Made by a program: the position numbers and the translations under genes. A stretch of DNA of 64,000 nt from assembly GCA_026390575.1 (NCBI GenBank), contig JAPLFR010000001.1, positions 124,001 through 188,000 on the forward strand, read 5' to 3'. Each line of letters opens with the position of its first letter. Position 1 is the stretch's first letter. This stretch comes from Ignavibacteriales bacterium. GTDB taxonomy: Bacteria; Bacteroidota; Ignavibacteria; UBA10030. Below the pieces are notes generated by a model. It ran no database searches. It was not told the origin of the DNA and saw nothing but the letters and a program-made list of their open reading frames with translations. Below are positions 4,249 through 41,713 of this stretch, piece by piece.

Positions 4249-4990
4249 AACTCAATCGAAGCCCACTTATCTTGAAGGTGTAAAACGTATTTAATATCCT
4301 AATCCTATTATCCCATGAAGTTATGATTGACTTATTCTTTAGACCCCATTTAAAGAATGATTTGGAATCTAATCCAGATTTATGAATTATTTGGTTTGCT
4401 ATATTAACTCCTTTGGGGGATGTTACATCAAAAAACAATTCGGAATTATCAAATTTGTCGGCGAGCTTAACAATGAAATTCTTTATTTCTCCTTCTTCAA
4501 AATAAACGAATACTCCGGTTGCTATAAACAGAACCTTATCAGGGCTAACAATCTTATTAAACCATTTTGTGTCAAGAAAAGAACATGAAATAAAGTCTCT
4601 GTTTCCGTTCTCACTCATGAATTTCTTTCTTAAATCTATCACATCTGGAAGGTCTAAGTCATACCAAAGAATCGACTTATTATTAAGTCTTTCATAAGTA
4701 GTGTCTAATCCACAACCAATATTTACAATTGTTCCGTTGGGATGATTGGTGATAAAGTTTTCTATTACGGAATCAAATCTTTTGCAACGTGCGATCCATG
4801 CAATCTGACTAATTTCAGATATATTTTTCGACATCTGCGATAAATCATAATCAACAAGGTCAATAATTTTTACTGCTGCTTTATCAATCAATATTGGTTT
4901 ATTCTTTTTAGCTTCGACTGCTCTTGCCCATACCGGCATAAAAAGAGTTTTTTGAATGTCTCCTAATTCGACTTTAATTTTATTATTCAT
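4169..4990 (-). CDS. Class I SAM methyltransferase, leucine carboxyl MTase (PPM1/LCM) family
   Basis: 273 aa. Residues about 85-100 contain the SAM-binding VNIGCGLDT loop with the downstream acidic YDLDLPDV, and FIATGVFVYF matches the family's conserved GVxxYL block. Such bacterial enzymes O-methylate small carboxylic substrates; the substrate here is unknown. An AAGGAAT Shine-Dalgarno precedes the ATG at 4990. The gene fills one cassette between attC-like sites and is more AT-rich than the chromosome around it, consistent with acquisition. Confidence 0.82.
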   Translation of the reverse strand: MNNKIKVELGDIQKTLFMPVWARAVEAKKNKPILIDKAAVKIIDLVDYDLSQMSKNISEISQIAWIARCKRFDSVIENFITNHPNGTIVNIGCGLDTTYERLNNKSILWYDLDLPDVIDLRKKFMSENGNRDFISCSFLDTKWFNKIVSPDKVLFIATGVFVYFEEGEIKNFIVKLADKFDNSELFFDVTSPKGVNIANQIIHKSGLDSKSFFKWGLKNKSIITSWDNRIRILNTFYTFKISGLRLSFRNKILGLISDSLDVQYMLHLSISKT

Positions 4991-5028
4991 GTTTTATTCC
5001 TTTGGTTCTCAACGTATTTCTTAATTGC

Positions 5029-32595: not shown

Positions 32596-33141
32596 ATGAA
32601 AAACAAAATTATCCCAATCACCCTTGCATTATTCTTTATTAGCACACAATTCCTGATTGCTCAAAAAGATCATATGATGCATGAGAAATCGATGGTCAAG
32701 CGGGCAATTGCTGTGGTGACAGCTACAAAAGGAAATTCTGTACACGGCGTCGTGACATTTGAGGCAGGAGAAAAAGGAGTCCGCGTTGTTGCAAATCTTA
32801 TCGGTTTAAAACCTGGAACGCATGGATTTCACATTCATGAATTCGGTGATATCAGTTCCGAAGATGGGAGTTCAGCAGGCGGGCATTTCAATCCGACAGG
32901 AATGCCTCACAGCATGCCGATGAGTGCAAACCGTCATGCAGGTGATATGGGAAATATTAAAGCAGATGAACAAGGGAACGTACATCTCGATTATATTGAT
33001 CCGGTTATAAAACTTAACGGCCCGAATTCAATCATCGGACATGCCGTTATCATCCATGAAAAAGAGGATGATTTCAAAACGCAGCCAACCGGAAACGCAG
33101 GAGCGAGAATCGCATATGGTGTCGTTGGAATAGCGAAATGA
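32596..33141 (+). CDS. sodC: Cu/Zn superoxide dismutase, exported, lacking the disulfide
   Basis: 181 aa with a signal peptide (ITLALFFISTQFLIAQ). Copper ligands: HGFHIHEFGD, GGHFNP and GHAVIIHEKEDD; zinc ligands: PHSM, NRHAGD (His and Asp). Catalytic Arg is in GNAGAR. It converts superoxide to peroxide in the periplasm. Unusual: the two Cys of the conserved intrasubunit disulfide are missing, with GDISSE where GDCS is expected and ARIAYGVV where ARxACGVI is expected. AAAGGAGGAAGT decides the start at 32596; the longer frame from 32557 has no site. Confidence 0.93.
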   Translation: MKNKIIPITLALFFISTQFLIAQKDHMMHEKSMVKRAIAVVTATKGNSVHGVVTFEAGEKGVRVVANLIGLKPGTHGFHIHEFGDISSEDGSSAGGHFNPTGMPHSMPMSANRHAGDMGNIKADEQGNVHLDYIDPVIKLNGPNSIIGHAVIIHEKEDDFKTQPTGNAGARIAYGVVGIAK

Positions 33142-33182
33142 GTGTACGAGCCGCTGATATCCTGTAAGATATGGAGATATAT

Positions 33183-34130
33183 ATGAAGATTACTCTCATG
33201 CAGAGATATTTTCGATTATGCATATTCGCATCTTGTGTTGCACTTTTATTCTCCGTTGGTCGTTCCCAGCAAATGCCGGATGAGTACCAAAACATCCTCG
33301 TGTTTCTCGGTAGACAAGGAGATTATCAGGATGGTGTGTTTAAAGTAAACATCCCACGAAATGATCTGACCGTAACAGTAAGCGCTGTCGCGGCTCCCAC
33401 ACCATTTGGTTTTGGCGGGTGGTTAGCGATGACCAAAGGAGACAGCGGGAATGATGTGATGATGGGTGATCTGGTTCTTTTACAGGACGAAGTAAACCCT
33501 GTGATGTCTGCGCTTCTGGATAACGATCTCGAAGTCACAGCACTCCACAATCATTTCTTCTGGGAGGAGCCGCGAATATTCTTCATGCACGTTCACGGTC
33601 ACGGAAGGGCAATAGATATTGCAAAGAAAGTCAAACCTGCATTGGCTCTCATCGGACATATAGCAGGTCAAACAGGTACATCGACGATAAAGAAAAACGT
33701 TGGTGAAATCATTGAAGGAAAATTGAACACAGACAAATTGAATCATATCATCGGCCATAAAGGAGTTCGAACAGGAGTGACGTACAAGATTGTCATTGGA
33801 CGCGATGATATTCAAGTAAAAGAAATGGGCGCTGTTATCAATGCACGGATGGGTTTGAACACCTGGGCTGCGTTTATCGGTACAGATGAAAAAGCTGCAA
33901 TCGCAGGAGACATTGCCATGCTTGAAGACGAAGTGACTTCTGTATTAAAAACTCTACGCAAAAACGGTTTAGATGTTGTTGCGATTCATCACCATATGAC
34001 TGGAACCAATCCCATGATTATCTTTCTCCATTATTGGGGAGTTGGGCCTGCCGATAAGTTGGCAATCGGCTTTCGGGCTGCTCTTGATAAACTCGGCAAA
34101 GGAACTGGCGGCATGACAATGCATCATTAA
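33183..34130 (+). CDS. DUF1259 (LppY/LpqO) family exported protein
   Basis: 315 aa. Signal peptide (LCIFASCVALLFSVGRSQ) followed by two homologous halves, each with a His cluster: ALHNHFFWEEPRIFFMHVHGHG and AIHHHMTGTNPMIIFLHYWG. This is the DUF1259 architecture; metal binding is likely but unproven. Start at 33183 chosen for GGAG 8 bases upstream. It is 42 bp after sodC, in the same direction, suggesting a shared oxidative or metal-stress role. Confidence 0.85.
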   Translation: MKITLMQRYFRLCIFASCVALLFSVGRSQQMPDEYQNILVFLGRQGDYQDGVFKVNIPRNDLTVTVSAVAAPTPFGFGGWLAMTKGDSGNDVMMGDLVLLQDEVNPVMSALLDNDLEVTALHNHFFWEEPRIFFMHVHGHGRAIDIAKKVKPALALIGHIAGQTGTSTIKKNVGEIIEGKLNTDKLNHIIGHKGVRTGVTYKIVIGRDDIQVKEMGAVINARMGLNTWAAFIGTDEKAAIAGDIAMLEDEVTSVLKTLRKNGLDVVAIHHHMTGTNPMIIFLHYWGVGPADKLAIGFRAALDKLGKGTGGMTMHH

Positions 34131-34263
34131 TCTCTAAGTCAAGACCTCTGCTCTGATCCATAGCAGCGGAAAGGAGGAGAAAGATGTCCGGACATGGATG
34201 AAGAAAAGAAAATAGTGTTGAGACACTCTTATGTCGTGATGGTCGGGGCAGGCTGAGATTCAA

Positions 34264-34704
34264 GTGGAATTATTAAATATGACCAAGAACAGCATGCAGC
34301 AAAGAACTTCATCACATCCTATTATTTTATTTGACGGCATGTGTAATCTTTGCAATTGGTTTGTTCGATTTATCATTGGACATGATAAGAATGATATATT
34401 TCGTTTCGGAATACTCCAGTCTGAAAAAGGGCGAGAGCTACTGAAAGGAATTCCATCGGAAGGTTGTGATCTCACGACAACTCTTTTATTAAATATTGAT
34501 AGGGTTGATAGTAAGTCTGATGCCGTCCTTAAGATTCTAAGAACTCTCGGCGGAGGTTGGAGTTTATTCTATCTCTTTGTTATTGTGCCAAGGTCAATTC
34601 GAGACTGTGTGTACAACTTTATATCCAGGTACCGATATCACATTTTTGGTAAACGACAATCATGTTTGGCAGCTTCACCGGAAGAGCTGAGAAAGTTTAT
34701 TTAA
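34264..34704 (+). CDS. DCC-family thiol-disulfide oxidoreductase-like protein (DUF393)
   Basis: 146 aa. FDGMCNLCNWFV is the DxxCxxC signature of DUF393/DCC proteins, a thioredoxin-like fold; a further Cys lies at RQSCLA. Predicted cytoplasmic redox protein. Start uncertain: GTG at 34264 or ATG at 34279, neither with a strong ribosome site. It is followed 25 bp later by the pterin dehydratase gene. Confidence 0.85.
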   Translation: MELLNMTKNSMQQRTSSHPIILFDGMCNLCNWFVRFIIGHDKNDIFRFGILQSEKGRELLKGIPSEGCDLTTTLLLNIDRVDSKSDAVLKILRTLGGGWSLFYLFVIVPRSIRDCVYNFISRYRYHIFGKRQSCLAASPEELRKFI

Positions 34705-34729
34705 TTAAAATATAAAAGGAAACAACCTC

Positions 34730-35023
34730 ATGGCACTTTTAACAAAAAAAGAAATCCGTCTCGCTTTATCAGAATTAGGAGGATGGGCGTTGCAGGGAAA
34801 AGAGATACGGAGAAAATTTGAATTCGCCGATTTTGCATGTGCTATAGGATTTGTCATTTCTGTGGCGATAGTTGCCGAACGAGCAAATCACCATCCGGAT
34901 ATAGATATCCGCTGGAACAAAATCACGTTTTCACTTTCTACACACAGTGAAGGCGGAATCACGGGGAAGGACATTTCCTTAGCGAAGAAGATCGATTCAC
35001 TTCTACAGGGTAAGCAGCTTTGA
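34730..35023 (+). CDS. phhB: Pterin-4a-carbinolamine dehydratase
   Basis: 97 aa, full length. Dehydrates 4a-hydroxy-tetrahydropterin in pterin recycling. The conserved active-site block ANHHPDIDIRWNKITFSLSTH is present with the His-His pair, followed by GITGKD. AAAAGGAAACAACC precedes the ATG. It lies between the DCC and RibD-like genes. Confidence 0.92.
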   Translation: MALLTKKEIRLALSELGGWALQGKEIRRKFEFADFACAIGFVISVAIVAERANHHPDIDIRWNKITFSLSTHSEGGITGKDISLAKKIDSLLQGKQL

Positions 35024-35044
35024 GGAAAGCACAGGAGAAGATTC

Positions 35045-35617
35045 ATGAGCAAACTCATCGTTTTCAATTCGGTATCACTGGATGGTTTCTTTGTGGATAT
35101 CAACGGCGACATGCAATGGGCTCACAACACAATTAAGGATGAAGCGTGGGATGCATTTGTCGTATCGAATGCAAGTGGTGGAGGTGTGCTCGTCTTCGGC
35201 AGGGTTACCTATGAACTCATGATAAGATATTGGCCAACACCGTTGGCAATCCAGAATTATCCTGTGGTGGCCAAACAGATGAACAACCTTCCGAAGATCG
35301 TGTTTTCAAGAACGCTGGACAAAGCGTTGTGGAATAATACAAAGCTCGTAAAAGACGGCATGGTGATAGAAATACAAAAGATGAAGAATGAGCCAGGGAC
35401 TGACATGGTGATTATAGGCAGTGGCAGTATTGTTTCGCAACTGACTCAGGCGCGATTGATCGATGAATACCAGATCGTAGTGATTCCTGTTATTCTCGGT
35501 CAAGGAAGAACGTTGTTTGATGGCATCAAAGAGAACCTCGACTTAAAACTGGTAAACTCACGAGCGTTTGCCAATGGGAATGTTTTTCTGCGCTATGTAC
35601 CGATGCCATGGAGATAG
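35045..35617 (+). CDS. RibD C-terminal/dihydrofolate reductase-like protein
   Basis: 190 aa. Typical N-terminus VFNSVSLDGFFVDINGDMQW, NADPH-binding GGGVLVFGRVTYELM and GSGSIVSQL, and the end RTLFDG. Predicted NADPH-dependent reductase of a pterin- or pyrimidine-like substrate, not classical DHFR. GGAGAAGATTC precedes the ATG. Twenty-one bp after phhB, so the pair may share a pterin-related task. Confidence 0.85.
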   Translation: MSKLIVFNSVSLDGFFVDINGDMQWAHNTIKDEAWDAFVVSNASGGGVLVFGRVTYELMIRYWPTPLAIQNYPVVAKQMNNLPKIVFSRTLDKALWNNTKLVKDGMVIEIQKMKNEPGTDMVIIGSGSIVSQLTQARLIDEYQIVVIPVILGQGRTLFDGIKENLDLKLVNSRAFANGNVFLRYVPMPWR

Positions 35618-35735
35618 ATCATAAAAACGTGGCCGGCAAGTTACTATAAGGGTACAATCAGTGTGGCGGGACAGACGACGGAAGAAGGAACTCATTCTAT
35701 ATTCCAGTTGTTAAGCTTAATAGAAGAAAGAAAAA
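35618..35735. promoter_or_regulatory. Presumed promoter region of the cysteine operon
   Basis: Short spacer before the leader ORF. A promoter for the leader and the cysteine operon should lie here, but I cannot name clear -35/-10 or Bacteroidota-type boxes. Confidence 0.35.
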
Positions 35736-35831
35736 ATGAACATGAAACCAGGAATGAAAAAAAATAGTGTGGTGCTCACCTGCGCTTGTCCATGTCAAAA
35801 AGTGTGCTGTCGCGAAGGCGCGAGTCCTTAA
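35736..35831 (+). CDS. Cysteine-rich leader peptide, 31 aa (putative attenuator uORF)
   Basis: MNMKPGMKKNSVVL is followed by TCACPCQKVCCREGASP: five Cys codons within ten codons (35781, 35787, 35793, 35805, 35808), the last two adjacent. AGAAGAAAG upstream could serve as ribosome site. Directly after the Cys-Cys codons lies a TCGCG/CGCGA stem (35810-35823) with AAGG loop. An intrinsic terminator stands 30 bases after the stop, and the cysteine-synthesis operon starts 57 bases after that. The layout is that of a leader peptide for ribosome-mediated attenuation, in which a shortage of charged tRNA-Cys would let transcription continue. The peptide itself may have no function. Confidence 0.68.
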   Translation: MNMKPGMKKNSVVLTCACPCQKVCCREGASP

Positions 35832-35861
35832 ACGTTATATATACGATTATTTGATTCGCAG

Positions 35862-35895
35862 CCCTTCATTCAATTTCTTGGTGAAGGGTTTTTTT
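35862..35895 (+). terminator. Intrinsic terminator in the cysteine operon leader
   Basis: CCCTTCA (35862-35868) pairs with TGAAGGG (35882-35888), with a 13-base loop, followed by TTTTTTT. It sits between the Cys-rich ORF and the sulfurtransferase gene, so it must be passed for operon expression. CCTTC in its 5' arm could pair with GAAGG at 35814-35818 in the leader ORF, a possible but short antiterminator. Confidence 0.75.
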
Positions 35896-35951
35896 ATAGA
35901 ATGCTAGACACATGAATATATCGTCAATTATACATTCAAAGGAGTAATCTC

Positions 35952-36803
35952 ATGTCAAATAATTATGCGCATCCTGAAGTGCTTGTCGATACGGAGTGGG
36001 TGAGTCAGCATCTGACAGACCCTCATATCCGGCTTGTCGAAGTCGATGTCGATACACACTCATACAACGAAGCCCATATTCCCGGCGCAGTTGGTTGGAA
36101 CTGGCAGACTCAACTCTCCGACCAGGTCCGGCGTGATCTTGTTTCCAAATCGGATCTGGAAAAGTTGTTGGGAAATTCGGGAATTACCAATGGTACCACT
36201 ATCATTCTTTATGGAGACAATAACAATTGGTTCGCGGCATGGGCATTCTGGCAGCTGAAAATATACGGCCATCGTGATGTGCGCATTATCAATGGAGGCA
36301 GAAAGAAATGGATCAAAGAGGGAAGGGAAGTGACAAGAGATGTTCCTGTTGTTTCAGGGAAAACATACAAGGCGACAGATCCTGATTATTCGCTGCGTGC
36401 CTATGTGCAGGAAGTATCATCTCTTTCCAATGATTCATGGTCATTGGTTGATGTTCGTTCAGCAGATGAGTATTCCGGTAAGATCCTTTCGCCGCCGGGG
36501 CTTCCGGAGACATGCCAACGAGGAGGGCATGTGCCCGGCGCATTCAACATTCCATGGGGAAAGAATGTCAACGAAGACGGCACTTTCAAATCATTTGACA
36601 ACTTACGGTCGCTTTATGAACCCTTGGGTATCACATCGAATAAAAATGTTGTTGCGTACTGCCGCATAGGGGAACGTTCCAGTCTCACCTGGTTTGTTTT
36701 GAAGTATTTGCTTGGGTACACAAACGTCAAAAATTACGATGGTTCCTGGACAGAATGGGGAAATCTTGTCAATGCTCCGGTTACTCAAGGAGTCCAGCCA
36801 TGA
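35952..36803 (+). CDS. sseA: Thiosulfate/3-mercaptopyruvate sulfurtransferase (two rhodanese domains)
   Basis: 283 aa, full length. Inactive N-terminal rhodanese domain (about 10-130) and active C-terminal domain with the loop YCRIGERSS, Cys as persulfide carrier; the CRxGERS form is typical of thiosulfate sulfurtransferases of the actinobacterial CysA2/SseA type. It would provide sulfane sulfur to the E1-rhodanese partner encoded downstream. AAAGGAGTAATCTC precedes the ATG. Its stop overlaps the next start (ATGA). Confidence 0.92.
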   Translation: MSNNYAHPEVLVDTEWVSQHLTDPHIRLVEVDVDTHSYNEAHIPGAVGWNWQTQLSDQVRRDLVSKSDLEKLLGNSGITNGTTIILYGDNNNWFAAWAFWQLKIYGHRDVRIINGGRKKWIKEGREVTRDVPVVSGKTYKATDPDYSLRAYVQEVSSLSNDSWSLVDVRSADEYSGKILSPPGLPETCQRGGHVPGAFNIPWGKNVNEDGTFKSFDNLRSLYEPLGITSNKNVVAYCRIGERSSLTWFVLKYLLGYTNVKNYDGSWTEWGNLVNAPVTQGVQP

Positions 36804-37039
36804 CCGTAAATCATCCATCAGAGTATCAGGAACGATGGGAGTCGGTTCCACCGTTCCAGATTCACATAACCAGCTATAGAATTGATGATACATATTACTG
36901 TGCTGTGGATAACGTCGATCCCGGTGCGGTCATTGTTCGAACGAAGGGACTGGTACGCGATGAAGCCGAACTGAAAGCGATCATGCGAGTGAAGGAACGA
37001 TTAGAATATTCCCGTCTTCGGTATGAAAAGAAAATTTGA
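36800..37039 (+). CDS. Small protein of cysteine operon, 79 aa, unknown
   Basis: The start at 36800 overlaps the sulfurtransferase stop by ATGA, implying translational coupling. The sequence resembles a small alpha/beta domain: PPFQIHITSYRIDDTYYCAVDNVD, a strand VIVRTKGLV, then a helix rich in Glu/Arg to the end. One Cys. I do not recognise a family. Position between sulfurtransferase and cysteine synthase suggests a role in sulfur delivery. Confidence 0.7.
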   Translation: MTVNHPSEYQERWESVPPFQIHITSYRIDDTYYCAVDNVDPGAVIVRTKGLVRDEAELKAIMRVKERLEYSRLRYEKKI

Positions 37040-37061
37040 ATTCACAAACGGAAAATAAATC

Positions 37062-38036
37062 ATGACATGGAAATCAAAAACGGACTCGTTTCCTGAAATT
37101 CGTGAAACATATTTGGAGCAACGCATCCGCGATCATTCATCGATGCTGGGCAATATCGGCAATACACCTCTTTTACGAATTCGAAAAATAGCCATTCCGA
37201 ATGACTATGTTCAGATTTATGCTAAAGCGGAATGGTTTAATCCCGGCGGTTCGATCAAAGACCGTCCAGCCTTGAACATGCTTCTGGAAGCCGAAAAGTC
37301 AGGAAGGCTTACAAAAGGAAAAATCATCATTGATGCAACAAGCGGTAATACCGGTATCGCGTACGCAATGATTGGAAGTGCGCTAGGTTATAAAGTGATT
37401 CTCGCGCTTCCGGCGAATGCGAGTCCGGAGCGAAAACAAACACTCCGCGCCTATGGCGCTGAAATCCTGGAAACAGATCCGCTCACAGGAACGGACGGAG
37501 CGCAGCGGTACGTCAAAGAAATTGTTGCTGCCTATCCCGATCAGTATTTTTATCCCGATCAATATAATAATCCGGCCAACTGGCTCTCGCATTACAACAC
37601 AACGGCATGGGAAATCTGGAATCAATCCAGGAATCGTATTACACATTTTGTTGCCGGACTCGGGACGACAGGAACATTTATCGGGACAAGCCGAAGACTG
37701 AAAGAATTAGAACCATCTATTGTTTGTTCATCATTCGGACCAGATTCTCCGCTCCATGGACTGGAAGGCCTGAAGCATTTACCTACAGCGTTGGTTCCTG
37801 GTATCTATGATCCGACTCTTGCGAACGAACATCTTACCGTCTCGACCGATGACGCATATTCCATGGTCAGACAACTAGCACGGCAGGAAGGTTTGTTTGT
37901 TGGAATTTCCAGCGGTGCGGCGCTTGCTGTTTCACTCAAGCTTGCCGCACAGATAGAAAGCGGTGTGATCGTCACAATTTTTCCGGACGGCGGCACGCGA
38001 TATAGCAGCGAACATTTTTGGAATGCAACCGAATGA
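37062..38036 (+). CDS. cysM: PLP-dependent cysteine synthase, CysM/CysO-dependent type
   Basis: 324 aa. Fold-type II PLP enzyme: PLP Lys in GGSIKDRPA (Lys 66), phosphate/substrate loop TSGNTG (93-98), glycine-rich GLGTTGTF, and SSGAAL near the end. Makes cysteine from an activated serine. Because it sits with a JAMM peptidase and a sulfur-carrier/E1 fusion, it most likely uses a protein thiocarboxylate as sulfur donor, as mycobacterial CysM does with O-phosphoserine; that preference is inference. It is encoded 22 bp after the 79-aa gene. Confidence 0.9.
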   Translation: MTWKSKTDSFPEIRETYLEQRIRDHSSMLGNIGNTPLLRIRKIAIPNDYVQIYAKAEWFNPGGSIKDRPALNMLLEAEKSGRLTKGKIIIDATSGNTGIAYAMIGSALGYKVILALPANASPERKQTLRAYGAEILETDPLTGTDGAQRYVKEIVAAYPDQYFYPDQYNNPANWLSHYNTTAWEIWNQSRNRITHFVAGLGTTGTFIGTSRRLKELEPSIVCSSFGPDSPLHGLEGLKHLPTALVPGIYDPTLANEHLTVSTDDAYSMVRQLARQEGLFVGISSGAALAVSLKLAAQIESGVIVTIFPDGGTRYSSEHFWNATE

Positions 38037-38049
38037 AAAGGAAAATCAT

Positions 38050-38523
38050 ATGATACGAATATCAAAAAAGATTATCGCTGAGATTGAATACCATGCAGAA
38101 CAAACGTACCCGGAAGAATGCTGCGGAATGATGCTGGGATTCAGCAAGAACAGTATTCATTTTATAGAAGAGGTCATCAAGATTGATAACAGTCAAGATG
38201 AAAACCGCCGCCGCCGATTTTTTATCACGCCGGAGCAATACCGGCAAACAGAACAACTTGCCAGGGCGTTGAAAATGGAACTGCTGGGATTTTATCATTC
38301 TCATCCAGATCATCCTGCCGCTCCCTCGGTATTCGATACAGATCATGCTCTGCCATGGTTTACGTACATCATTATCTCAGTGGGACAGGGTAAAGCTGCG
38401 GCGATGACCGCCTGGCTGTTAAATGAAAAACGCACTCAGTTCAATGAACGGATGATCATTGTAGATTCATCACCGATATCATCTGCTGCGCGGCAGTTTG
38501 CACACGCTTCGCATGAACTATGA
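38050..38523 (+). CDS. mec: JAMM/MPN+ metallopeptidase (Mec+-type)
   Basis: 157 aa. Zinc peptidase site: Glu in PEECCG (about 22-23), HSHPDHP (His 83, 85) and SVFD (Ser 93, Asp 96), the JAMM pattern H-x-H-x7-S-x2-D. In mycobacteria the equivalent enzyme releases cysteine from the CysO-cysteine adduct by cutting after the terminal Gly-Gly. Here it may also free the carrier from the fused E1 protein. Start at 38050 chosen for AAGGAAAATC; the longer frame overlaps cysM. Confidence 0.9.
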   Translation: MIRISKKIIAEIEYHAEQTYPEECCGMMLGFSKNSIHFIEEVIKIDNSQDENRRRRFFITPEQYRQTEQLARALKMELLGFYHSHPDHPAAPSVFDTDHALPWFTYIIISVGQGKAAAMTAWLLNEKRTQFNERMIIVDSSPISSAARQFAHASHEL

Positions 38524-38556
38524 TACAAAACATATTTATTGCATAAAGGAAACATT

Positions 38557-40005
38557 ATGTCAATCAAAATATTTATTCCGACTCCTCTCCGACCTTATAC
38601 CGAGAAACAGGACACGGTTGAAGTGGAAGGGAGCACGGTAGAGGAAGCTCTGAAAAATCTCACATTAAAATACAGATCGCTACAGCAGCATCTCTATTCA
38701 GAACAGGGCACGCTGCGCAGTTATGTGAATATCTATGTCAACGACAACGATATCCGGTACTTATCAAAAGAGAAAACGAATGTGAATGAAACAGATTCCA
38801 TAAGTATCATTCCATCTATTGCAGGAGGAGTCGAAGTCTGTGAAGTAGAAACAGAAGAAGAAGTTCAACTGTCGAAAGAAGAAATCCTGCGCTACAGCCG
38901 GCATCTCATCATACCTGAGGTAGGGATGCAAGGGCAGAAGAAATTAAAAGCTGCCAGTGTCCTTCTCATCGGTGCAGGCGGACTCGGTTCGCCGCTTGCA
39001 CTCTATCTTGCTGCAGCAGGCGTTGGGAAAATCGGTATAGTGGATTATGATGTTGTCGATGAAACGAATTTACAGCGTCAGATCATGCATACTACGAGCG
39101 ATGTCGGAAGACCCAAGCTTGAATCTGCAAAGGAATCGATAACAGAGATAAATCCCAACGTTATCGTCGAAATATATCCAGTGCGTCTATCATCTGACAA
39201 TGCCCTCGAACTATTGAAGAACTATGATGTTATTGTGGACGGCACAGACAATTTTCCAACGCGGTATCTGGTCAATGACGCATGCGTGCTGCTCGGCAAA
39301 CCGAATGTGTATGGATCTATTTTCCGGTTCGATGGACAGGTGACTGTCTTTGATTCGAAGCGAGGTCCATGTTATCGATGCTTGTATCCGACACCGCCAC
39401 CGCCCGGACTCGTTCCGAGCTGTGCAGAAGGAGGAGTGCTGGGAGTTTTACCTGGAATTATCGGCACACTTCAGGCATTGGAGACAATCAAGTTGATACT
39501 TGGAGAAGGCGAACCATTAATCGGACGCCTCGTATTGTTCGACGCTCTCAAATTCAAGTTTCGTGAATTTTCTCTTAAAAAGAATTCGGAATGCCCAGTG
39601 TGCGGTACTGTTCCGACGATCCATCATTTGATAGACTATGAACAATTTTGCGGAATAGAATCGTCCGTTAAGCCGAAATTTAATTTTGGTATGCCGGAAA
39701 TTTCTGTAGAAGAATTAAAAGGCCGGATCGACCGCGGTGATGATCTCTATATTCTGGATGTGCGAGAACCGAATGAGTACGAAATTGCCAACCTTGGCGG
39801 ACATCTGATTCCACTCTCGGAACTACCTGACCGTGTATCCGAACTCGATCCGTATAAAGAGATCGTTGTCCATTGCAAATCCGGTGGACGGAGTGCAAGA
39901 GCCGTGAGGTTTCTTCAAAATGCAGGATTTAAGAAAGTCAAGAACCTTGCCGGCGGAATTGATGCATGGGCTCAACGAATCGATCCCCGGATACATCGTT
40001 ATTAA
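38557..40005 (+). CDS. moeZ: Fusion: ThiS/CysO-like sulfur carrier + MoeB/ThiF E1 + rhodanese
   Basis: 482 aa. Residues 1-91 are a beta-grasp carrier ending in SIAGG (Gly 90-91). Then a short linker, the E1-like adenylyltransferase (105-350) with nucleotide loop GAGGLGSP (139-146), VDYDVVDETNLQRQ, and zinc Cys pairs CYRC (272/275) and CPVC (346/349), and a rhodanese domain (380-480) with catalytic Cys in VHCKSGGRS (Cys 440). The E1 would adenylate the carrier C-terminus and the rhodanese deliver sulfur to make a thiocarboxylate. Unusual: the carrier's Gly-Gly is not free but followed by VEVCEVE, so processing is needed. AAAGGAAACATT supports this start. Confidence 0.92.
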   Translation: MSIKIFIPTPLRPYTEKQDTVEVEGSTVEEALKNLTLKYRSLQQHLYSEQGTLRSYVNIYVNDNDIRYLSKEKTNVNETDSISIIPSIAGGVEVCEVETEEEVQLSKEEILRYSRHLIIPEVGMQGQKKLKAASVLLIGAGGLGSPLALYLAAAGVGKIGIVDYDVVDETNLQRQIMHTTSDVGRPKLESAKESITEINPNVIVEIYPVRLSSDNALELLKNYDVIVDGTDNFPTRYLVNDACVLLGKPNVYGSIFRFDGQVTVFDSKRGPCYRCLYPTPPPPGLVPSCAEGGVLGVLPGIIGTLQALETIKLILGEGEPLIGRLVLFDALKFKFREFSLKKNSECPVCGTVPTIHHLIDYEQFCGIESSVKPKFNFGMPEISVEELKGRIDRGDDLYILDVREPNEYEIANLGGHLIPLSELPDRVSELDPYKEIVVHCKSGGRSARAVRFLQNAGFKKVKNLAGGIDAWAQRIDPRIHRY

Positions 40006-40070
40006 GATAGTTATAGAGTGGCTTAAGAATCTTGTTGATTTAAAAACTGCTGAATCATGACCAACTCATT

Positions 40071-41240
40071 TTACTTCAACCGACCTTTAATATCCGCGGT
40101 CTTAAACGGACCGAGTTCTGCAATCAAAGCACGTGCGGCTTCTACCTGGTTCCATACATTCCAGAGTAAGACACCTCGTACTTGACCATTCTTGAGATAG
40201 TAAACCACGCCTTCTGTATACGGTTTCTTCCAGTCGGAGTATGTTTCTAAGCTTGAATCTAAGTCACCGACTGCCTCGTACCCTAGCTCAAACATATCGG
40301 AGTAAAAGAACGGCAGGTGGTGGTAAGGCTCTGCCATTCCTGCCATATTTCTGCCCGCTAAACGTCCCATAGTATTTGCGTTATCTTCGTGTTCAACTCT
40401 GATATGTTTCTTGAGTGAAGGATTATAAAAAAAGGTAACATCACCGGCTGCAGAGATGTCCTTTTGATTGGTTTGTAGAAATTCATCCACGAGGATTCCA
40501 TCTCTCGTCTCAATTTTAGCAACTTGGGCAAGTTCGATGTTTGGGAGAGAACCGATTCCTGCAACAATACCTTCTACCTTGATATCTTGATGATTAGTTT
40601 TCACTGTTAATTCATTATTATTCTTTTGCAGACCGAGTATTTTCTCACCGGAGAACACCTCAATGCCTTTCTGTTTATAAAATTGATTGAGAAATTGGGA
40701 GAGATCATGGGGGAATATACGCTCTCCGATACCTTCTCCGGGAAAAATCATTGTTACGTGTTTCCCATTCATCGAGAGAGCCGCCGCGATTTCTGAACCG
40801 ATGAATCCGCCTCCGATCACAGCGAATCGTTTTCCAGTTTCAGCGAGTGCTCGAAGATTTCGATAGTCCGTTAATGTACGAAAGTACAGTATCGATTCAT
40901 CATCGAATTCAAGCCGTCTCGGCCGGACGCCTGTTGCAAGCAAGAGTTTCTCATATGAAAATACTTCTCCATTTGCGCAGATAACCCGCTTCTGCCCGGG
41001 ATCGATTTCGTTGACAACCTGGCCGAGATGAAATTCTACAGTTTTCTTTCCGGTATCTCTCCAGATAGTATCAAGTGAGTCGCCTTTCCAGAGCGCCTTC
41101 GAGAGAGGAGGGCGTTTGTATGGAGGATCGGTTTCAGCACTAATCAAACCGATGCTGCCGGACGGGTCTGCCTCGCGTATTCCATCCACTGCAGCAGCTG
41201 CAGTCATACCGCCGCCAATAATCAAGTATTTGTATTTCAT
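40071..41240 (-). CDS. FAD-dependent pyridine nucleotide-disulfide oxidoreductase (AIF/ferredoxin reductase-like)
   Basis: 389 aa. N-terminal FAD loop IIGGGMTAAAAVDGI, second dinucleotide loop AVIGGGFIGSEIAAAL, and ISAAGDVTFFY for the flavin tail; no CxxC redox pair. The C-terminal part fits the reductase_C domain of AIF/rubredoxin-type reductases. Predicted NAD(P)H-dependent electron donor to an unknown acceptor. Its ATG overlaps the rpiB stop (ATGA), so the two are translated together. Confidence 0.88.
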   Translation of the reverse strand: MKYKYLIIGGGMTAAAAVDGIREADPSGSIGLISAETDPPYKRPPLSKALWKGDSLDTIWRDTGKKTVEFHLGQVVNEIDPGQKRVICANGEVFSYEKLLLATGVRPRRLEFDDESILYFRTLTDYRNLRALAETGKRFAVIGGGFIGSEIAAALSMNGKHVTMIFPGEGIGERIFPHDLSQFLNQFYKQKGIEVFSGEKILGLQKNNNELTVKTNHQDIKVEGIVAGIGSLPNIELAQVAKIETRDGILVDEFLQTNQKDISAAGDVTFFYNPSLKKHIRVEHEDNANTMGRLAGRNMAGMAEPYHHLPFFYSDMFELGYEAVGDLDSSLETYSDWKKPYTEGVVYYLKNGQVRGVLLWNVWNQVEAARALIAELGPFKTADIKGRLK

Positions 41241-41713
41241 GATGAGTGCCTCGTGCGGGTCATTTTTGGAATCTGTTCCAGCGCTGCGACCTTGGTCAGC
41301 CGGCGTTGATGGTTTTTATTTTTGATGAACCTGGCACCCAGGAATGCCCGTGTCAAATCCCATGCGAGCGAATAATTAATGACTTGTGCTCCGAAACAGA
41401 TCACATTCATGTCGTCGTCTTCAACGCCCTGGTGCGCAGAAAAGTAATCGGAGATTAATGCCGCCCGTACGCCTTTCACTTTGTTTGCTGCGATACACGC
41501 ACCGACTCCGTTTCCACAAATCGCAATACCGCGCTGAACCCTGCCGCCAGCAACAGCTCGTGCAAGCGGCACAACGAAATCCGGATAGTCATCTTTCGGA
41601 GAGAGAGTAGACGGACCAAAATTCACAATCGTGTGCCTTAGTTTTGCCAGCGATTTCTTCATCTGTTTCTTCAACGCAAATCCAGCGTGGTCCGAAGCAA
41701 TTCCCATGCGCAT
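41237..41713 (-). CDS. rpiB: Ribose-5-phosphate isomerase B
   Basis: 158 aa. Interconverts ribose 5-phosphate and ribulose 5-phosphate. GIASDHAGFALK at the N-terminus and GIAICGNGVGACIAANK with the catalytic Cys are the RpiB/LacAB signatures; the Asn-rich DDDMNVICFGAQVI is also there. Start at 41713 is set by AGGAGGTTACGTC; the longer frame from 41794 lacks a site. First gene of a two-gene operon. Confidence 0.93.
   Translation of the reverse strand: MRMGIASDHAGFALKKQMKKSLAKLRHTIVNFGPSTLSPKDDYPDFVVPLARAVAGGRVQRGIAICGNGVGACIAANKVKGVRAALISDYFSAHQGVEDDDMNVICFGAQVINYSLAWDLTRAFLGARFIKNKNHQRRLTKVAALEQIPKMTRTRHSS

Follow-up and report, generated by a model that had tools for sequence, protein, structure and literature searches.

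A short cysteine-rich ORF followed by an intrinsic terminator precedes a cysteine-synthesis operon in an Ignavibacteriales genome, and the two very probably constitute a transcription attenuator that senses charged tRNA-Cys, as judged from the sequence of the locus and its relatives. The locus lies within a 64,000-nt stretch of DNA (contig JAPLFR010000001.1, positions 124,001 to 188,000), hereafter the window. The first-pass annotation had read the leader as a terminator-based cysteine attenuator, and this reading gained support from the Cys-rich ORFs, terminators and antiterminator co-change seen among relatives. The leader comprises the following elements:

35723–35730, + strand: purine-rich GAAGAAAG, by its sequence a possible Shine–Dalgarno element of the leader ORF
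35736–35831, + strand: leader ORF of 31 codons with five Cys codons (sequence, shuffles, orthologous loci)
35781–35795, + strand: Cys codons 16, 18 and 20, by their spacing the probable control codons
35805–35810, + strand: Cys codons 24 and 25, adjoining the antiterminator arm and, by their spacing, probably not the main control codons
35810–35823, + strand: small hairpin TCGCG/CGCGA with loop AAGG, seen in the sequence, which would mask the antiterminator arm (putative role)
35814–35826, + strand: 5′ arm of the antiterminator, GAAGGCGCGAGTC (duplex energies, fold)
35853–35867, + strand: 3′ arm of the antiterminator, whose end (35861–35867) doubles as the 5′ arm of the terminator (fold)
35861–35895, + strand: intrinsic terminator, stem CCCTTC/GAAGGG followed by seven T (sequence, fold energy)

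Re-reading of the locus bore out the parts from which the proposal had been built, namely a 31-codon ORF with five Cys codons, two of them adjacent, a small stem behind these codons and a terminator with seven T some 30 bases past the stop. The ORF translates to MNMKPGMKKNSVVLTCACPCQKVCCREGASP and ends in a stop codon, with Cys at codons 16, 18, 20, 24 and 25; the stem TCGCG-AAGG-CGCGA follows, and the terminator, beginning ~30 bases 3′ of the leader stop codon, pairs CCCTTC (35862–35867) with GAAGGG (35883–35888) ahead of the T run (35889–35895). Folded alone (35860–35890), the terminator reached −13.6 kcal/mol. It was absent from the output of a general terminator scanner, likely owing to that program's loop limit of 8. 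The fold of the whole leader differed little from that of shuffled sequences (z = −1.08), which says little about a two-state switch. A promoter scan and a search for leaderless-type promoters returned no convincing promoter for the window leader, and downstream of the terminator the forward strand held one weak promoter-like match (35935–35963) that overlaps the start codon. Known riboswitches of the Rfam collection (SAM, T-box and others) were rejected as candidates, as positions 33000–41500 of the window gave one match, far below the gathering score and not at the leader, and the loci of 12 relatives gave two, neither of them at a leader.

The terminator lies downstream of, and on the same strand as, a RibD_C gene ending at 35617, to which it might belong, with the ORF a mere accident. 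Against such a coincidence, which is disfavoured and which we hold to be very improbable, not one of 100 dinucleotide shuffles of the 400-base region ahead of the operon produced five Cys within 12 codons, a reversed version of the switch pattern described below matched nothing, and the leader is kept in a genome of the same genus (G005) despite a different upstream short ORF there (CxxC zinc-ribbon-like). When both strands of the window were screened, with thresholds of our own, for short single-residue-rich ORFs that have a terminator behind them, this leader was the sole match.

An alternative pairing between the 3′ part of the ORF and the terminator had been predicted as GAAGG/CCTTC and called short. 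The pairing holds, as the outer part of a longer helix, but its shortness does not: the predicted fold (35812–35870) has a main helix of 13 pairs rather than 5, joining 35814–35826 with 35853–35867, and includes C35819–G35861 and GCGAGTC/GATTCGC beyond the pairs first noted. At −18.5 kcal/mol, this antiterminator is predicted to be more stable than the terminator (−13.6 kcal/mol). The same fold was predicted for G005 (−20.5 kcal/mol), where an inner-helix A-U pair is replaced by G-U.

Spacing along the leader was compared among terminator-class leaders, excluding G136 and G118 and using core strings that we chose ourselves. With a permissive Cys codon defined as one ending at least 9 nt before the antiterminator core, the core starts 16–30 nt past the last such codon and 11–32 nt before the stop in 17 leaders, window included; in the window itself, 18 nt separate the end of codon 20 from the core. 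Given a ribosome footprint of ~26 nt (PMC13236596), in most of these 17 leaders the core would lie under a ribosome that has reached the stop codon. A ribosome paused in the Cys run would leave it uncovered; by these distances, the core would thus be free with the ribosome at the control codons and covered with it at the stop. Codons 24 and 25 directly precede GAAGG, where a ribosome would probably cover the antiterminator, and are therefore unlikely to be the main control codons; codons 16, 18 and 20 probably serve this role.

We infer that the leader is transcribed and translated, and that ribosomes stall on it in response to cysteine. With sufficient cysteine, the ribosome would run to the leader stop codon (35829) and mask the arm at 35814–35826, so that the terminator at 35861–35895 would form and transcription would stop ahead of the operon. 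Under a shortage of charged tRNA-Cys, the ribosome would stall at Cys codons 16–20, and the arm, staying free, would pair with 35853–35867 and sequester the 5′ arm of the terminator; RNA polymerase would then continue into the TST-cysM-JAMM-ThiS/E1 genes. The small hairpin at 35810–35823 could compete with the antiterminator. Taken together, the window leader displays every sequence-level attenuator feature that was looked for, and that it would work like a classical leader-peptide attenuator is well supported.

Family searches identified the genes behind the leader as those of the cysteine-synthesis operon that had been proposed:

35952–36803, + strand: first operon gene, a sulfurtransferase with two rhodanese stretches (family matches)
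37062–38036, + strand: cysteine synthase, CysM-like (family matches, structure-chain matches)
38023–38523, + strand: JAMM/Prok-JAB protein, a probable metalloprotease (family match)
38539–40005, + strand: ThiS–ThiF/MoeB–rhodanese fusion, a sulfur carrier with its activating enzyme (family matches)

The best NCBIfam model for the CysM-like protein was cysM, with a score below its cut-off (357.6 vs. 394.2), and the best chain matches were cysteine synthase B, i.e. O-acetylserine sulfhydrylase B (2jc3, 2v03), with further matches to the cysteine synthase B/O-phosphoserine sulfhydrylase chains 3dwg and 3dki, which we take to be mycobacterial. In mycobacteria, the CysO-CysM-Mec pathway is a sulfur-carrier route to cysteine. 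The present cluster resembles it in uniting a cysteine synthase, a JAMM protein and a ThiS-like carrier with its E1, but differs in that carrier, E1 and rhodanese are fused in one protein, and in that the best chain matches are of the O-acetylserine sulfhydrylase B type. In the host genome, the nitrite/sulfite reductase family had no match and the PAPS reductase match only equalled its cut-off, so that sulfur is probably taken up in some other form, for example as thiosulfate. Among its named relatives, an Ignavibacteriae MAG (L061) comes closest, with a CysM 84% identical, and NCBI taxonomy places Ignavibacteria within the Bacteroidota/Chlorobiota group; the earlier description of the genome as Bacteroidota-like was thus about right. 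Among five other members of the genus searched, only G005 had a cysM match.

Of 391 genomes of the class, 46 have cysM homologues at E ≤ 1e-100, at 47 places in all, and 45 loci were kept after leaving out one at a contig end (G128) and one without upstream DNA (G024). At 30 of the 45, the gene cluster begins with a short Cys-rich ORF; 27 of these leaders carry at least four Cys per 12 codons, and three weaker ones (G007, G012, G029) were counted by eye. No such leader was found at the remaining 15 loci. Short Cys ORFs separated from the next gene by 409–1027 nt (G221, G161), or situated well ahead of cysM (G110), were left uncounted. While 21 leaders directly precede either cysM (19) or a rhodanese gene (2; window and G005), the other nine directly precede a sulfite reductase-like gene, 3.7–10.1 kb upstream of cysM on the same strand. 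The genes picked between reductase gene and cysM at these nine loci all share that strand, are never more than 283 bases apart and include, by eye, siroheme synthase-, APS kinase- and sulfurtransferase-like starts; we assume that each of the nine clusters is a single transcript. An intrinsic terminator stands just past the ORF in 19 of the 30 leaders, a count that leaves out G014, whose hairpin lies inside its ORF. The Cys runs take forms such as CACCCCC, CCCCCC and CPCCCPC, and those of G189 and G166 differ by exactly one codon, indicating that the reading frame is kept.

In a second set, 80 named loci from several phyla (the set of cysM relatives plus the window, with one locus dropped for its short upstream region) were searched for ORFs with at least four Cys per 12 codons within 400 bases; 11 had one and 69 did not, some of the latter having their leader further upstream than 400 bases. 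A Cys ORF (at least three per 12 codons) with a terminator occurred in 7 of 81 upstream regions of cysM (at most 700 bases), including one that we do not claim as a leader (L099), vs. 5 of 749 control ORFs, where two of the five matches were themselves leaders of sulfite reductase genes (L062, L068).

Several other arrangements were observed at these loci. A Calditrichia MAG (L105, ~4500–4990) has two tandem Cys-rich leaders before cysM, each with its own terminator, and a SAM riboswitch match lies at 734–839 of this locus. Two Acidobacteriota loci (L080, L081; ~4690–5000) combine Cys codons with a terminator and an antiterminator (at least 13 pairs), the sequences of both differing from those of the window. 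A small CxxC zinc-ribbon-like ORF (CRYCG ... CKxCRKL) lies just before cysM in L032 (on the same contig as L064), L062, L065, L067, L068 and L076, and a CxxC zinc-ribbon-like ORF is also found upstream in L031 and L041.

Antiterminator pairing was assessed in 20 leaders as the duplex energy between the stretch behind the Cys codons and the 5′ arm plus loop of the terminator. At most 25 of 500 shuffles matched the native energy in 15 leaders, among them the window (10 of 500); three further leaders had 27, 29 and 52, so that 17 of the 20 passed at 10% and 15 at 5%, and two failed (G136, 110 of 500; G118, 289 of 500). Own pairs of arm and terminator averaged −16.9 kcal/mol vs. −12.9 kcal/mol for 380 crossed pairs, in a set of which many members are relatives with a shared core.

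Comparing upstream regions across relatives, as the first-pass annotation had suggested, yielded the expected Cys ORFs (30/45), terminators (19/30) and co-change between groups, but not covariation within the closest leaders. Across 13 aligned leaders, CGCGAAGG is invariant, and pair comparison on this alignment accordingly detected no covariation; support of this kind therefore rests on differences between groups, and terminator types were compared instead. With types assigned by us, pairing tracked the terminator in four of the six, which bound their own terminator best. The CCCGCTG type, for instance, reached −17.1 kcal/mol with its own arm vs. −7.6 kcal/mol with the CCCTTCG arm, and the CACCAGA type −16.8 vs. 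−8.1 kcal/mol. Of the exceptions, the CCCTTCG type showed stronger binding to the GC-rich G136 arm (−18.1 kcal/mol) than to its own (−15.4 kcal/mol), and G118 preferred the G136 and CCCGCTG arms to its own. Cases with other terminators are more independent: in G379 and L073, the CCCGCTG stem is matched by GCAGCGG and GCAGTGG; G063 has 14 continuous antiterminator pairs that extend into the terminator loop; the similar Acidobacteriota loci L080 and L081 had 2 and 0 of 500 shuffles; and G048 belongs here with weak duplex support (52 of 500). For the two Calditrichia leaders of L105, the counts were 10 and 111 of 500, the second being weak. These comparisons support an antiterminator predicted to be exclusive with the terminator and to change together with it between lineages.

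We also used the switch itself as a query, in the form CGAAGG-N28-58-CCCTTC-N6-18-GAAGGG-Y-TTTT. Written with the window and some leaders of relatives already known, it matched 24 places in 20 of the 391 genomes, at least four of them known beforehand (window, G005, G045, G086), and its reversed control matched none; in the host genome, the window leader was the only match. A looser pattern, TGYTGYTGYTGYTGA, was discarded as too unspecific, as it matched 278 of the 391 genomes. All places but one (L155), i.e. 23 of 24, precede sulfur amino acid genes. Family searches on representatives, with other members assigned by similar protein starts, identified the downstream genes as sulfite/nitrite reductase (L149), serine acetyltransferase (L162; below the cysE cut-off and above that of the EpsC type), cysH (L161, L163), cysteine synthase (L158) and O-acetylhomoserine sulfhydrylase (L141). 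In L161 and L163, from two genomes of different families, a gene for a DUF2061-type membrane protein (by Pfam match in L163, by eye in L161) sits between leader and cysH, which suggests a link of DUF2061 to sulfate assimilation. Sequence comparison thus documents the ORF, the terminator, an alternative pairing with its group-wise co-change, the spacing and the association with sulfur amino acid genes.

Eight of the leaders (L141–L148) are rich in Met instead, most often as MMCMM, and stand ~200–340 bases before metY (assigned by family search in L141 and by protein starts in the rest) with the same CGAAGG/CCCTTC switch; they are candidate methionine attenuators. The L161 leader before cysH has a run of both residues (CMCMM), and that of L163 has, by eye, apparently only two Cys codons (CAC). 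No other single observation argues as strongly for the codons being the sensor as this change from Cys to Met runs in step with the target pathway. It also speaks against the ORF yielding a working metal- or thiol-binding peptide whose expression the terminator merely tunes: clusters such as CACPC and CC could in principle bind metal, but the run turns Met-rich with the RNA switch unchanged, the peptides diverge widely outside the Cys run and the antiterminator-encoding stretch, and neither Pfam nor NCBIfam holds a match for the leader peptide. We accordingly give a working peptide hardly any credence.

In 11 of the 30 leaders at cysM loci, the terminator scan found no terminator, so another readout must exist there (G079, G016, G060, G073, G011, G072, G054, G014, G007, G012 and G029; loci L207, L043, L044, L215, L040, L216, L038, L045, L041, L042 and L058). 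Ten of them have a Cys run that abuts the stop codon, whereas in the 19 leaders of the terminator class the last Cys lies 4–13 codons before the stop. ORF design and the occurrence of a terminator are thus correlated, which fits the idea that the Cys-to-stop distance makes room for an antiterminator arm. Terminator-less ORFs are on average also C-rich and G-poor (C 0.30, G 0.20, vs. 0.20 and 0.26 in the terminator class), and this class is perhaps under Rho-dependent or translational control; Rho was suggested for terminator-less Cys leaders in Actinobacteria (PMC1262725). All of this would fit a Cys ORF acting independently of any terminator, through Rho or coupled translation, with the window hairpin incidental. 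The window leader, however, is of the other class: its last Cys lies six codons before the stop, and it has both terminator and antiterminator. For the window we thus see only a small chance of terminator-independent action and retain attenuation by alternative hairpins.

A promoter of the form TTGACA-17-TAnnTT, with its –10 hexamer 8–9 nt before the start codon, was found in 11 of the 30 leaders, which suggests that nearly leaderless RNAs would be made there. This search of 30 leaders found no such promoter in the window or in G005.

Terminator-based leader peptides are classically known from the trp, his, leu and ilv operons. These attenuators resemble the leader described here in having an ORF with control codons, two mutually exclusive hairpins, an intrinsic terminator and an antiterminator that is covered by the ribosome at the stop codon. 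They differ in that the present leader would sense cysteine, and in that the antiterminator of several relatives also pairs into the terminator loop. PMC13236596 lists ilvB among such systems, and according to PMC2965389, leader peptide systems had as of 2010 been shown only in Proteobacteria and Actinobacteria, to which it adds Firmicutes; the present leaders belong to lineages outside those that it names.

Cys leader peptides themselves have been described in Actinobacteria, ahead of cys operons and of cbs, in a 2005 paper (PMC1262725) that reports no conserved terminator hairpins for them. PMC9031893, PMC13236596 and PMC9094748 cite polycysteine leaderless short ORFs in mycobacteria (Canestrari et al. 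2020) and give their mechanism as translation attenuation; the first of these papers describes such leaderless RNA. The window shares with these leaders a run of Cys codons in a short ORF before cysteine genes, and in both, by analogy, the speed of the ribosome would be tied to cysteine. Our terminator-less class resembles them most, having the Cys run at the stop codon, and the near-leaderless promoter spacing of 11 of our 30 leaders is likewise reminiscent of the mycobacterial ORFs. The Actinobacterial type lacks a conserved terminator hairpin and has its Cys codons clustered near the stop; in the window leader, by contrast, a terminator is present, an antiterminator arm lies inside the ORF, the Cys codons come well before the stop and our search showed no leaderless-type promoter. 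Literature searches of open-licence PMC papers showed no terminator-based Cys attenuator among the papers listed; as far as we have checked, this type of switch has been described only without a terminator, in other bacteria.

Similar leaders were seen in Acidobacteriota and Calditrichia MAGs. More broadly, we put at about even chances the idea that these leaders descend from an old module spanning several phyla, in which a near-leaderless polycysteine (or Met-rich) ORF is combined with an exchangeable readout: a terminator with an antiterminator (loop-invading in some lineages) or, in sister lineages with the same operon, a terminator-less Rho-dependent or translational arrangement with the Cys run at the stop. 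Jointly, such leaders would place sulfur assimilation under an RNA regulon that covers cysM, sulfite reductase, cysE, cysH, cysK and metY. An attenuator of the kind proposed for the window would extend the range of terminator-based leader peptides to cysteine and, via the same RNA switch, methionine, in phyla whose genomes come mostly from uncultured members. Operons that are orthologous but whose leader comes with or without a terminator would permit direct study of how one sensing ORF switches its readout, and the simplicity of the motif may allow sulfur regulons to be predicted in such genomes.
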